DNA of 64,000 bases from Thermoclostridium stercorarium subsp. stercorarium DSM 8532 (GTDB taxonomy: Bacteria > Bacillota > Clostridia > DSM-8532): NCBI RefSeq assembly GCF_000331995.1, contig NC_020134.1:2640627-2704626 (forward strand), written 5' to 3'. How positions within the stretch are numbered: the first letter of the stretch is position 1; each line of letters begins with the position of its first letter. The notes under the pieces were generated by a model, which ran no database searches, was not told the DNA's origin, and saw only the letters and a list, made by a program, of their open reading frames with translations. The position numbers and the translations under genes are program-made. Positions 40,233-45,241 of the stretch are shown in pieces.

Positions 40233-40742
40233 TCACCACTTCTCATAATGAACTTTTGTATTGTCGAAACGGTCCTGGGGTGATTTTTCCTCATTTGGGT
40301 ATCCCACGGCTATAAGCCCCACCGGTATTATATTATCAGGAAGGCTTAAAATCTCTGAAAATACCTTGGTTCTGTCGGCATCGGGATAAATGCCGCACCA
40401 TACCGCACCCAGACCTATCCCGTGCGCTGCAAGAAGAATATTCTGTATTGCGGCCGAACAATCCTCAACCAGGAACCCCTCTCTTGTTTCCCTGTTAATG
40501 TCCCCGCATACTATAATGCCGCATCCTGACTGCGGGAGCATCTTGGCATAAGGATGTTTTTCCGCCATTTTTTCAAGTTTTTCCTTATCCTTAACCACAA
40601 CAAAATGCCATGGCTGGAGATTATGGGCCGAAGGTGCCTGGAATCCGGCCTTCAGCAGTACATTCAACTCATCGTCGGAAATAACCCGTCCGGTGAATTT
40701 TCTTATGCTGCGCCTTGTAAGAATTGCATCAATTACATCCAT
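40233..40742 (-). CDS. Nitroreductase-family flavoprotein
   Basis: This FMN-binding oxidoreductase begins MDVIDAILTRRSIRKFTGR, with the arginine-serine FMN motif, followed by GFQAPSAHNLQPWHFVVVKD and GIGLGAVWCGIYPD. The start is ATG 40742, with AAGGAGGGG nine bases upstream. An in-frame start at 40847 would overlap the parC-like gene and lacks the motif. 169 residues is typical. It follows the parC-like gene by 16 bases and likely shares its transcript. Substrate unknown. Confidence 0.88.
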   Translation of the reverse strand: MDVIDAILTRRSIRKFTGRVISDDELNVLLKAGFQAPSAHNLQPWHFVVVKDKEKLEKMAEKHPYAKMLPQSGCGIIVCGDINRETREGFLVEDCSAAIQNILLAAHGIGLGAVWCGIYPDADRTKVFSEILSLPDNIIPVGLIAVGYPNEEKSPQDRFDNTKVHYEKW

Positions 40743-40758
40743 TATACAATTCCCCTCC

Positions 40759-42930
40759 TTAAAACATTTTAACCTGCTTTTCCTCCCTGTCCTCGTCCTT
40801 AAGATAGCATCCGACGGCAGGGATGTTTTTGGTCCGGTAATAGTCAAAGTCGGTAAAGTTTACTTCGTCAAGTTCCTTAATTTTCACCATAATACTTCCG
40901 TTTTTGGACTTCATCACCTGTACTCCTCCGGAATCTCTTGTGGCCTTTGGATTTATATTGGCGGTATTGAAAATAAGCACCTTGTTAATATCAGAAAAAG
41001 CAACCAGTTCCCTGTCCTCCCTGAGGAAACGGATATCACACAGCGGCGATTCATTCGAGTAGGCATTTATAAGCTTCTTACGGTTTGTTTTGGTGGCATA
41101 ACTGGATAACGGAATTTTGGCGCATTTACCATTCACAAAGGAAAACAGCATATAACCCGAGTAGTCTTCGGTGGCAACCATATAAAGTATTCTCTCACCT
41201 TCGTTCAGTTCCAAGACATTTCCAAGATATTCTCCAAGCATTGATGTCTTGCAGTCATTAATTTCGTGGACCTTGATTTTATAGGCCACATACTGGCTGG
41301 AAAAAAGTATAAGATCGCTTTTGTTTCTTGCTTCAATTTCCTGAATTATTCTGTCATCCTCTTTAAGTTTCTGCTCGCCCGAAGACCTTAACGACGTAAG
41401 CGGAATCTTCTTAAGGTACCCCTGTTCGGTAAGGAACAGCCTGACATTGTAATCTTCAATCATCACTTCCTCTGTAACCACTTCAACCTGCTGTTCGCTA
41501 ATTATCCCTGTTCTGCGCGGCTGTCCGTATTTTTTGGATATCTCTTCCAGTTGTCTGCATATAATATCCAGTATTCTTGATTCTTTTTCATATATATCCT
41601 TAAGCTCGGCAATTTCAGCTTTTAAGGCCTCAATGTTCGCCGTTTGCTTCAATATGTACTCCCTGTTCAGGTTTCTAAGTTTAATCTCGGCAATAAATTC
41701 AGCCTGGGTCTGATCTATGCCGAACCCTTTCATCAGGTTTGGCACAACCTGATCTTCTTTTTCCGTTTCACGGATTATCTTTATTGCTTTGTCTATATCA
41801 AGAAGGATTCTGGACAACCCTTCCAGCAGGTGCAGTCTTTCGGACTTCCTTTTTATGTCGAAAGCCGTCTGCCTCCGGATACAGTTCATCCGGAATTCAA
41901 TCCAGTTGTCCAGTATGCCCTTTATACCCAAAACCTGCGGCCTGCCGTTAATAAGAATATTGAAATTGCACCCGAAACTGTCCTCAAGGGGTGTAAGTTT
42001 AAACAGCTTATTCATCAAGGCGTCAGGATCAGCCGAACGCTTTATGTCAATGGTTATTTTCAAACCGCTAAGATCGGTTTCATCGCGTACGTCCGTTATG
42101 TCTTTTATTTTTCCGTTCTTGACAAGCTCTGTTATGGAATCAATAATGGTTTCCGCCGTAGTGGTGTACGGAATCTCATATATTTCTATACAATTGTTTT
42201 TTTTGTCAAACCTGTATCTTGCCCGGACTCTGAAACTTCCCCTTCCGGTTTCATAAATATTCCTGAGTTCCCGCTCGTTGTAAATCAGTTCCCCTCCGGT
42301 GGGAAAATCCGGAGCCTTCAAATATTGAAGAAGATCCACATTGTCATTTTTTATATATGCAATTGTAGCCTCACATACCTCTTTCAAATTAAAACTGCAG
42401 ATATTGCTGGCCATTCCAACGGCAATACCCTGATTCGGGTTTACAAGAATATTCGGGAAAACGGTGGGCAGCAATACCGGTTCTTTCATCGTTCCATCGT
42501 AGTTATCTGTAAAATCCACCGTGTCCTTGTCAATGTCCCTGAACAATTCCGCACTTATAGGCGCAAGTTTTACCTCGGTATACCTCGGCGCCGCATACTT
42601 CATGTCCCTTGAATAGACCCGGCCGAAGTTACCTTTTGATTCTATTAGGGGATGCAATAAAGCACCGTATCCCGTTGTGAGGCGTACCATTGTTTCGTAA
42701 ATGGCCATGTCTCCGTGGGGATTCAGTTTCATTGTCTGGCCTACCACATTGGCGGATTTGGTTTTGTCGCCGTTAAGAAGCCCCATTTTGTACATGGTGT
42801 ATAAAAGTTTTCTGTGAGAGGGCTTCAACCCGTCTATTTCGGGTATGGCACGGGAAACAATGACGCTCATTGCATATGGCATATAGTTTAATTTCAGTGT
42901 TTCAACTATCTTTTGCTCGGTGAACTTCAT
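40759..42930 (-). CDS. parC: Type IIA topoisomerase subunit A (parC-like, divergent)
   Basis: This subunit cuts and rejoins DNA. The 723-residue product begins FTEQKIVETLKLNYMPYAMS. IPEIDGLKPSHRKLLYTMY and RDMKYAAPRYTEVKLAP carry the catalytic tyrosine in APRYTE. The coiled coil and C-terminal wheel are present, but the gyrase box QRRGGKG is not seen, which points to topoisomerase IV or a second gyrase-like enzyme. Together with the adjacent parE-like gene it forms a divergent pair. The main gyrA/gyrB are probably elsewhere. Confidence 0.85.
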   Translation of the reverse strand: MKFTEQKIVETLKLNYMPYAMSVIVSRAIPEIDGLKPSHRKLLYTMYKMGLLNGDKTKSANVVGQTMKLNPHGDMAIYETMVRLTTGYGALLHPLIESKGNFGRVYSRDMKYAAPRYTEVKLAPISAELFRDIDKDTVDFTDNYDGTMKEPVLLPTVFPNILVNPNQGIAVGMASNICSFNLKEVCEATIAYIKNDNVDLLQYLKAPDFPTGGELIYNERELRNIYETGRGSFRVRARYRFDKKNNCIEIYEIPYTTTAETIIDSITELVKNGKIKDITDVRDETDLSGLKITIDIKRSADPDALMNKLFKLTPLEDSFGCNFNILINGRPQVLGIKGILDNWIEFRMNCIRRQTAFDIKRKSERLHLLEGLSRILLDIDKAIKIIRETEKEDQVVPNLMKGFGIDQTQAEFIAEIKLRNLNREYILKQTANIEALKAEIAELKDIYEKESRILDIICRQLEEISKKYGQPRRTGIISEQQVEVVTEEVMIEDYNVRLFLTEQGYLKKIPLTSLRSSGEQKLKEDDRIIQEIEARNKSDLILFSSQYVAYKIKVHEINDCKTSMLGEYLGNVLELNEGERILYMVATEDYSGYMLFSFVNGKCAKIPLSSYATKTNRKKLINAYSNESPLCDIRFLREDRELVAFSDINKVLIFNTANINPKATRDSGGVQVMKSKNGSIMVKIKELDEVNFTDFDYYRTKNIPAVGCYLKDEDREEKQVKMF

Positions 42931-43020: not shown

Positions 43021-44997
43021 TCAGCTTACATCCAGCATGTCCAGATATTCATGACCATGTTCGCTTATATAGTCTTTTCTGCCCTGCAGATTGTCGCCGA
43101 GCAGAAGGTCGAAAAACTCCTCGGTAAGCTGCAGGTCATCCGGTACAACTTTTATCAGCCTTCTTGTTTCGGGATTCATTGTGGTATGCCACATCATATC
43201 CGGATCGTTTTCGCCAAGACCCTTTGAACGCATAATTGTGACTTTCTCGCCTTTAAGATTTTTCAGAATATCATTTTTTTCCTTTTCATTATATGCAAAC
43301 CATATTTTATCTCTGCAGCGGATCTCAAACAACGGTGTTTCGGCAATGTAAACCTTTCCCTCACGGATTAACGTAGGCGTAAGCCGGTATATCATTGCCA
43401 GAATTAAAGTACGTATCTGGTACCCGTCCACATCGGCATCGGTGCATATAATAATCTTGTCCCATTTCAAATTCTCCATGTTAAATGTACTTAACTCTCT
43501 GTTATGCCTTGTTTTTATCTCAACGCCGCAACCTAAAACCTTTAGCAGATCCACAATTATTTCGCTTTTGAAAATAACGTCGTAATCGGCTTTAAGGCAG
43601 TTCAGTATTTTGCCGCGAACTGGCATTATTGCCTGAAATTCGGCATCACGGGCCATCTTACACGATCCAAGGGCGGAATCACCCTCAACAATGTAAAGCT
43701 CACGCTTTGAGACATCCTTTGTCCTGCAGTCAACAAACTTTTTCACCCGGTTTGTGAAATCCACCCTGCCGCTTAACTTTTTCCGCACGTCTATTCGTGT
43801 CTTTTCCGCCGTTTCACGGCTTCGTTTGTTCGCCAGTACCTGGTTCGCAATTCTCTCGGCTTCTTCCCTGTTCTCGATAAGATAAACCTCAAGCCGTTCT
43901 TTCAGGAATTCGGTCATTGCTTCCTGGATAAACTTGTTTGTTATGGCCTTCTTCGTCTGGTTCTCGTAACTGGTTATCGTCGAAAAGGAACTGCTGACAA
44001 ATATCAGGCTGTCCTGAATATCCTGAAAGGTTATTTTGGATTCATTTTTGTTATATTTGTTGTTGTTTTTCAGATATTTATCAATTTCATATACAAAAGC
44101 GCTTTTAACGGCTTTGTCCGGTGCACCGCCGTACTCCAGATAACTGGAATTGTGATAATACTCAAGCGCGTTGACTTCATTGTTGAACACAAAAGCAACG
44201 CTTATTTTCACCTTATACTCTGGCTTGTCCTCCCTGTCACGGCCCTTTGCCGTGGTCTCAAAAAACTGAACGGTGGTAAAGCCCGTATCGCCCGATATCT
44301 CCTTTACATAATCCATAATACCGTTTTCATAGCAGAACACCTCGGTGCTTCCCGATTCCTCATCAATCAATATGAATTTAATTCCGGGGTTAACCACCGC
44401 CTGCCGTTTTAACGTTTGCCTGTAATATTCAAGGGGAATCTTTATATCGGTGAAAACTTCAAGATCGGGTTTCCAGTGGGTTATAGTACCGGTATGTTCA
44501 TAGTCGAACTTTTCCTTCTTTAAGCCACCGACATTTTCCCCTTTCCTGAATTCCAGGGAATATTTGTATCCGTCCCTGAAAGACGTAACGAACATATACT
44601 CAGAACTGTACTGGGTCGCACATGCGCCAAGGCCGTTCAGGCCAAGGCTGAACTCGTAGTTTTCGCCGCTGTTGTTGTTGTATTTTCCGCCTGCGTACAG
44701 TTCACAGTATATCAGTTCCCAGTTATAGCGTTTTTCTATAGGATTGTAATCCACAGGAACACCGCGGCCTTTGTCCTCCACCGTAATAGACCAGTCGCGG
44801 TGACGGATAACCTTTATTTCGTCACCAAAGCCTTCACGGGCTTCATCAATGGAGTTTGACAAAATTTCAAAGAAAGCGTGCTCGCAGCCTTCCAGCCCGT
44901 CTGAACCAAAAATGACACTTGGACGAAGTCTGACGCGATCGGCACCTTTAAGAGCCACAATGCTTTCATTTCCGTAAATCTTTTCGTTCTTTTTCAT
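43021..44997 (-). CDS. parE: Type IIA topoisomerase subunit B (parE-like, divergent)
   Basis: This is the ATPase/Toprim subunit of a topoisomerase IV- or gyrase-like enzyme. The GHKL site is FEILSNSIDEAREG with DKGRGVPVDYN and GLNGLGACATQ. The Toprim motifs are YIVEGDSALGSC and ICTDADVDGYQIRTLIL. It is 658 residues. The promoter carries a LexA-type box (45075-45088), so the parE-parC-nitroreductase unit may respond to DNA damage. The 90-base gap to parC shows no terminator. Confidence 0.85.
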   Translation of the reverse strand: MKKNEKIYGNESIVALKGADRVRLRPSVIFGSDGLEGCEHAFFEILSNSIDEAREGFGDEIKVIRHRDWSITVEDKGRGVPVDYNPIEKRYNWELIYCELYAGGKYNNNSGENYEFSLGLNGLGACATQYSSEYMFVTSFRDGYKYSLEFRKGENVGGLKKEKFDYEHTGTITHWKPDLEVFTDIKIPLEYYRQTLKRQAVVNPGIKFILIDEESGSTEVFCYENGIMDYVKEISGDTGFTTVQFFETTAKGRDREDKPEYKVKISVAFVFNNEVNALEYYHNSSYLEYGGAPDKAVKSAFVYEIDKYLKNNNKYNKNESKITFQDIQDSLIFVSSSFSTITSYENQTKKAITNKFIQEAMTEFLKERLEVYLIENREEAERIANQVLANKRSRETAEKTRIDVRKKLSGRVDFTNRVKKFVDCRTKDVSKRELYIVEGDSALGSCKMARDAEFQAIMPVRGKILNCLKADYDVIFKSEIIVDLLKVLGCGVEIKTRHNRELSTFNMENLKWDKIIICTDADVDGYQIRTLILAMIYRLTPTLIREGKVYIAETPLFEIRCRDKIWFAYNEKEKNDILKNLKGEKVTIMRSKGLGENDPDMMWHTTMNPETRRLIKVVPDDLQLTEEFFDLLLGDNLQGRKDYISEHGHEYLDMLDVS

Positions 44998-45074: not shown

Positions 45075-45117
45075 CGAACTCATGTTCTATGATACAATAT
45101 TGCACGGCTTTTTTCAA
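45075..45117 (-). promoter_or_regulatory. Promoter of parE-parC with a LexA/DinR-type SOS box
   Basis: On the minus strand TTGAAA (45117-45112), 17 bases, then TATCAT (45094-45089). Directly downstream, CGAACTCATGTTCT (45075-45088) contains the perfect GAAC-N4-GTTC core of the Gram-positive LexA operator. It covers the expected transcription start, a position suited to repression. Confidence 0.65.
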
Positions 45118-45213: not shown

Positions 45214-45241
45214 AAAAAAATCCGGCATTGCCGGATTTTTT
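45214..45241. terminator. Bidirectional terminator after clpX
   Basis: TCCGGCA pairs with TGCCGGA (45221-45235), flanked by A7 and T6. It lies downstream of clpX and upstream of the parE promoter region. Confidence 0.88.

Follow-up and report, generated by a model that had tools for sequence, protein, structure and literature searches.

A LexA-type operator before a divergent topoisomerase IV-like operon in Thermoclostridium stercorarium and its relatives

We propose that in Thermoclostridium stercorarium, LexA represses a parE-parC operon until the DNA is damaged, and that the product of this operon most likely acts as a topoisomerase IV; given the sequence data, we believe that this is likely to be correct. 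Control of the parE-like operon by LexA, both here and in related bacteria, is very probable. The operon is on the minus strand of the window (the whole 64,000-nucleotide stretch of DNA from T. stercorarium subsp. stercorarium DSM 8532 that we analysed). The first gene encodes a type IIA topoisomerase B subunit that is parE-like (43021-44997; 658 amino acids). It is followed, after a gap of 90 bp, by the gene for a parC-like A subunit (40759-42930; 723 amino acids) and, 16 bp past parC, by the gene for a nitroreductase-family protein (40233-40742; 169 amino acids). The nitroreductase is the third gene of the operon in close relatives only: we found it in two of three relatives from genus g1, in both genomes from the sister genus g5, and in none of four other genomes. 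We rejected it as a conserved member of the operon beyond these two genera (0 of 63 named loci).

A pattern search of the whole window identified just one perfect GAACNNNNGTTC, at positions 45076-45087. It reads GAACATGAGTTC in the sense of the transcribed (minus) strand and GAACTCATGTTC on the plus strand. Upstream of this box is a sigma-70-type promoter (45089-45117, minus strand), with TTGAAA at 45117-45112, a spacer of 17 nt, and TATCAT at 45094-45089; a single base separates the -10 element from GAACATGAGTTC. We predict that transcription of parE begins around 45082, or about 7 nt past the -10 element, which is within the box. Because the box begins one base past the -10 element, it covers the expected start point of parE, and a GAAC-N4-GTTC-type operator overlaps the promoter, as expected for a member of the LexA (SOS) regulon. 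An earlier note on this DNA had placed such a box over the expected start of parE-parC-nitroreductase, and this is where we find it. The adjacent gene, clpX, is closed by an intrinsic terminator that divides it from parE (45215-45241, minus strand; 12 pairs and then a T-rich tail), so parE is probably transcribed from its own promoter.

Taken alone, this site proves nothing: shuffled windows have a mean of 0.77 perfect sites each, and the genome (2.97 Mb in one contig) has 42 perfect sites versus 42 for the reversed pattern. As the real pattern is no more common than its reverse, we rejected any claim of significance from site counts alone. Also, the spacer and flanks of the parE box rank 14th of the 42 sites. 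(The ranking is from a model built from four of the genome's own boxes.) This suggests that LexA's affinity for the parE box is modest, but four sites make a poor model. A chance match that LexA does not bind, with the parE promoter outside of SOS control, would fit with these counts and with the modest score. However, it would not explain why the box keeps a fixed position in the promoter across genera, why there is a large enrichment over shuffled sequences, or why the same type of box is present at lexA, recA, and a dinB-type polymerase gene, so we consider a chance match very improbable. The significance of the parE box comes from its conservation in relatives.

In our search of 32 genomes from the family, a perfect box was present before parE in every genome of genera g1 (four) and g5 (three). 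When we aligned the leaders from these seven genomes, the -10 element and the box formed the best-conserved block, which ends in TAGAACATRRGTTC, while other parts of the leaders drift. More broadly, we counted boxes in the 400 bp before parE, allowing up to one mismatch in an outer position. Within the family, 16 of 29 have a box, as compared to a mean of 0.5 after shuffling and none for the reversed pattern. In neighbouring families, a box is found in 12 of 15 (shuffle mean 0.2, reversed pattern 0). Elsewhere in the class, the count falls to 7 of 53 (shuffle mean 1.0, reversed pattern 2), and among the named genomes it is 11 of 78 (shuffle mean 1.6, reversed pattern 4). These counts imply that the operator is long established in one part of the Clostridia but does not extend to the whole class, and with just 7 of 53 elsewhere, we rejected the idea of class-wide LexA control.

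The form of the box and its setting vary. The boxes in genus g2 are of the GAACARATGTTT type, the box in genus g7 is CAAACAGATGTTTG, and in genus g3, which belongs to the same family, there is no box before parE. In several g2 genomes, an open reading frame lies between the promoter and parE, and the box precedes that reading frame, at -650 to -757. The intervening reading frame (in L054, L059, L064, L071, and L073) has about 200 codons and a signal-peptide-like start. Tepidibacter thalassicus (Peptostreptococcaceae; L167) carries the same kind of topoisomerase, with a CGAACATAAGTTTT box, and it possibly gained the topoisomerase by horizontal transfer.

T. stercorarium does encode lexA, with a clear match to TIGR00498. 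The earlier note had named two things that would count against its proposal, a genome that lacks lexA or a box that is not conserved in related genomes, and neither is the case. Of the 42 perfect sites, the majority are intragenic, but there are two in the promoter region of lexA, one at recA, and one at the dinB-type polymerase gene, so lexA and other SOS genes share this type of box. The earlier note had listed lexA, recA, and the uvr genes as controls for such a scan; the first two have perfect boxes, but we found no LexA box in the stretch that we examined around uvrB. Perfect boxes are also present in the promoter regions of a PDDEXK/DEAD_2 helicase-like gene, yfbR/DUF815, an HD-domain gene, and an 87-codon reading frame. 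(We read the regulon of T. stercorarium from the 42 perfect sites only.) The spacer of the parE box is ATRR in genera g1 and g5, unlike in the genome's own lexA and recA boxes. The palindrome could conceivably be the operator of some other repressor with a similar GAAC/GTTC half-site. But related genomes have GAACARATGTTTG and CGAACATAAGTTTG before parE, which are close to the lexA box of Staphylococcus aureus (CGAACAAATGTTTG), so we think that another repressor is extremely improbable.

The operon encodes a divergent enzyme. The genome has normal gyrase genes elsewhere (1001 bits for gyrB and 1199 bits for gyrA), while both subunits from the window score below every curated cut-off for gyrase or topoisomerase IV. 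The B subunit scores 412 bits against parE_Gpos (cut-off 900) and 473 bits against gyrB (cut-off 882); the A subunit scores 453 bits against parC_Gpos (cut-off 813) and 580 bits against gyrA (cut-off 877). The motifs that are expected of a topoisomerase IV are nevertheless present: the B subunit has the ATPase and toprim motifs, and the A subunit has the catalytic tyrosine (the RY motif, in AAPRYTE). The A subunit also lacks the GyrA box, whereas the genome's own GyrA has it, as QKRGGRG. In a 55-row tree, which has few rows from other phyla, the B subunit and 23 relatives form a single clade (support 100/100), and the branch that sets it apart has a length of 2.65 changes per site. This clade is apart from GyrB, from the ParE of Firmicutes, and from both GyrB and ParE of E. 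coli, so the B subunit does not group with canonical ParE. Since the branches are long, where the clade attaches is unsure, and given such a deep branch, topoisomerase IV activity cannot safely be transferred to this enzyme. The earlier note had described the pair as divergent and without a gyrase box, and it had called for a phylogeny against the main gyrase; the scores, the A subunit, and the B-subunit tree all agree with its description.

The clade is present in 200 of 393 genomes of Clostridia and in 104 of 219 genera, with 65-89% identity among the matches listed. We checked 78 carriers, and in 77 of them gyrB and the gene from this clade are the only B-type genes. Of 68 non-carriers, 24 have more than one B-type gene and the other 44 have just one, and ten further B-type genes that we sampled from non-carriers form one clade beside the ParE_Gpos-type rows. 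The clade enzyme and canonical clostridial ParE almost never occur together, although these are raw counts that include shared ancestry. The window enzyme is conserved, lacks a GyrA box, is rarely found beside canonical ParE, and in a large part of the Clostridia is the one type II topoisomerase besides gyrase. We therefore think that its role is most likely that of topoisomerase IV.

The earlier note had instead suggested a damage-induced accessory topoisomerase, that is, an enzyme that is dispensable in normal growth and is made mainly after DNA damage. The LexA-type box over the promoter, the distance of the sequence from both gyrase and canonical ParE, and the presence of a normal gyrase elsewhere in the genome are all consistent with this. 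However, an accessory enzyme would not be expected to be so widespread and well conserved, or to be usually the only second type II topoisomerase. Furthermore, the box is absent in most carriers outside of the near families, so the link between the enzyme and damage control is not a fixed one. We therefore consider an accessory role to be unlikely, and we prefer to see the enzyme as the putative topoisomerase IV of these Clostridia.

In Bacillus subtilis, parEC is a LexA target. In S. aureus, parE is controlled by LexA while gyrase is not (PMC11442139), and in Streptomyces venezuelae, parE is in the LexA regulon, with the site TCGAACTTACGTCC (PMC9380542). parE from Sinorhizobium meliloti is also LexA-regulated, as cited in PMC3323433. 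Given the reports on S. aureus, S. venezuelae, and S. meliloti, the earlier note's premise that housekeeping topoisomerases are not usually strong SOS genes is too strong, and it fails for topoisomerase IV. The operon in T. stercorarium resembles parE-parC of S. aureus in its gene order and in the single LexA box that the parE promoter carries (CGAACGTACGTTTG in S. aureus), but the S. aureus enzyme is described as a canonical topoisomerase IV, and the clostridial subunits are below every cut-off for topoisomerase IV or gyrase. S. venezuelae and S. meliloti are alike in having a LexA-controlled gene for the B subunit of topoisomerase IV, but they belong to other phyla. A further comparison is to the canonical parE of other Clostridia, which fills the same second-topoisomerase slot and has a perfect GAACN4GTTC box upstream in 6 of 10 sampled genes; still, its proteins group beside the ParE_Gpos-type rows, and the window enzyme is separated from them by the branch of 2.65 changes, with support of 100/100. 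We found no LexA box upstream of any of 11 gyrB genes. We did not find parE in the published clostridial LexA regulons in the literature that we searched, and the main texts for Clostridioides difficile and Clostridium acetobutylicum do not mention topoisomerases.

We infer a mechanism that runs from binding to benefit. LexA would bind the GAAC-N4-GTTC box, which covers the expected start point at the parE-like promoter, and block RNA polymerase. After DNA damage, RecA filaments would lead LexA to cleave itself, and transcription of parE-parC (here with the nitroreductase) would rise. The product would be a two-subunit type IIA topoisomerase that unlinks chromosomes and relaxes supercoils, and with more of it, links that are left by recombination and stalled replication might be resolved more readily.

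LexA control of a topoisomerase IV is of a kind that was already known; what is unusual is that a distant lineage of enzyme carries the box. In both lineages, the second topoisomerase has LexA boxes, while the sampled gyrB genes do not, which might mean that the regulation follows the job and not the ancestry of the gene. More tentatively, and with slightly more doubt than confidence, we suggest that in about half of the sampled Clostridia, a deep-branching type IIA enzyme replaces canonical topoisomerase IV and that regulation tracks the job in this way. If so, then the second topoisomerase, rather than gyrase, has repeatedly been linked to the response to DNA damage among Gram-positive bacteria, including where the enzyme is of another lineage. 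We found no published description of this clade in the literature that we searched, so it seems to be a widespread but apparently unstudied group of type IIA topoisomerases in Clostridia.

At the position equivalent to Ser83 of GyrA, the A subunit from the window (42930-40759) has Met, and 106 relatives have mostly Ala, Met, or Gln. The genome's own GyrA has Ala at this position. Natural sensitivity to quinolones may be low, but we rejected quinolone tolerance as a specific feature of the window enzyme, as the own GyrA likewise has Ala.

The 87-codon reading frame (L040:1501-1839, G000:C1:2792686 onward) is preceded by a perfect AGAACATATGTTCG between TTTACA and TATAAT; it has no match in NCBIfam and is likely to encode a small SOS protein. 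Another perfect box (G000:C1:412213; L007:883-2984) is in the gap between two divergent genes, one for a YfbR-type 5'-deoxynucleotidase and the other for a DUF815 AAA ATPase. A third (G000:C1:1154207; L019:4-1512) is found before a gene whose product combines PDDEXK nuclease and DEAD_2 helicase domains and is loosely similar to DinG/Rad3. The best spacer and flank score belongs to the box (G000:C1:1964656; L028:392-1512) before the gene for an HD-domain phosphohydrolase, which is apparently divided between two minus-strand frames (1251-1469 and 392-1312).
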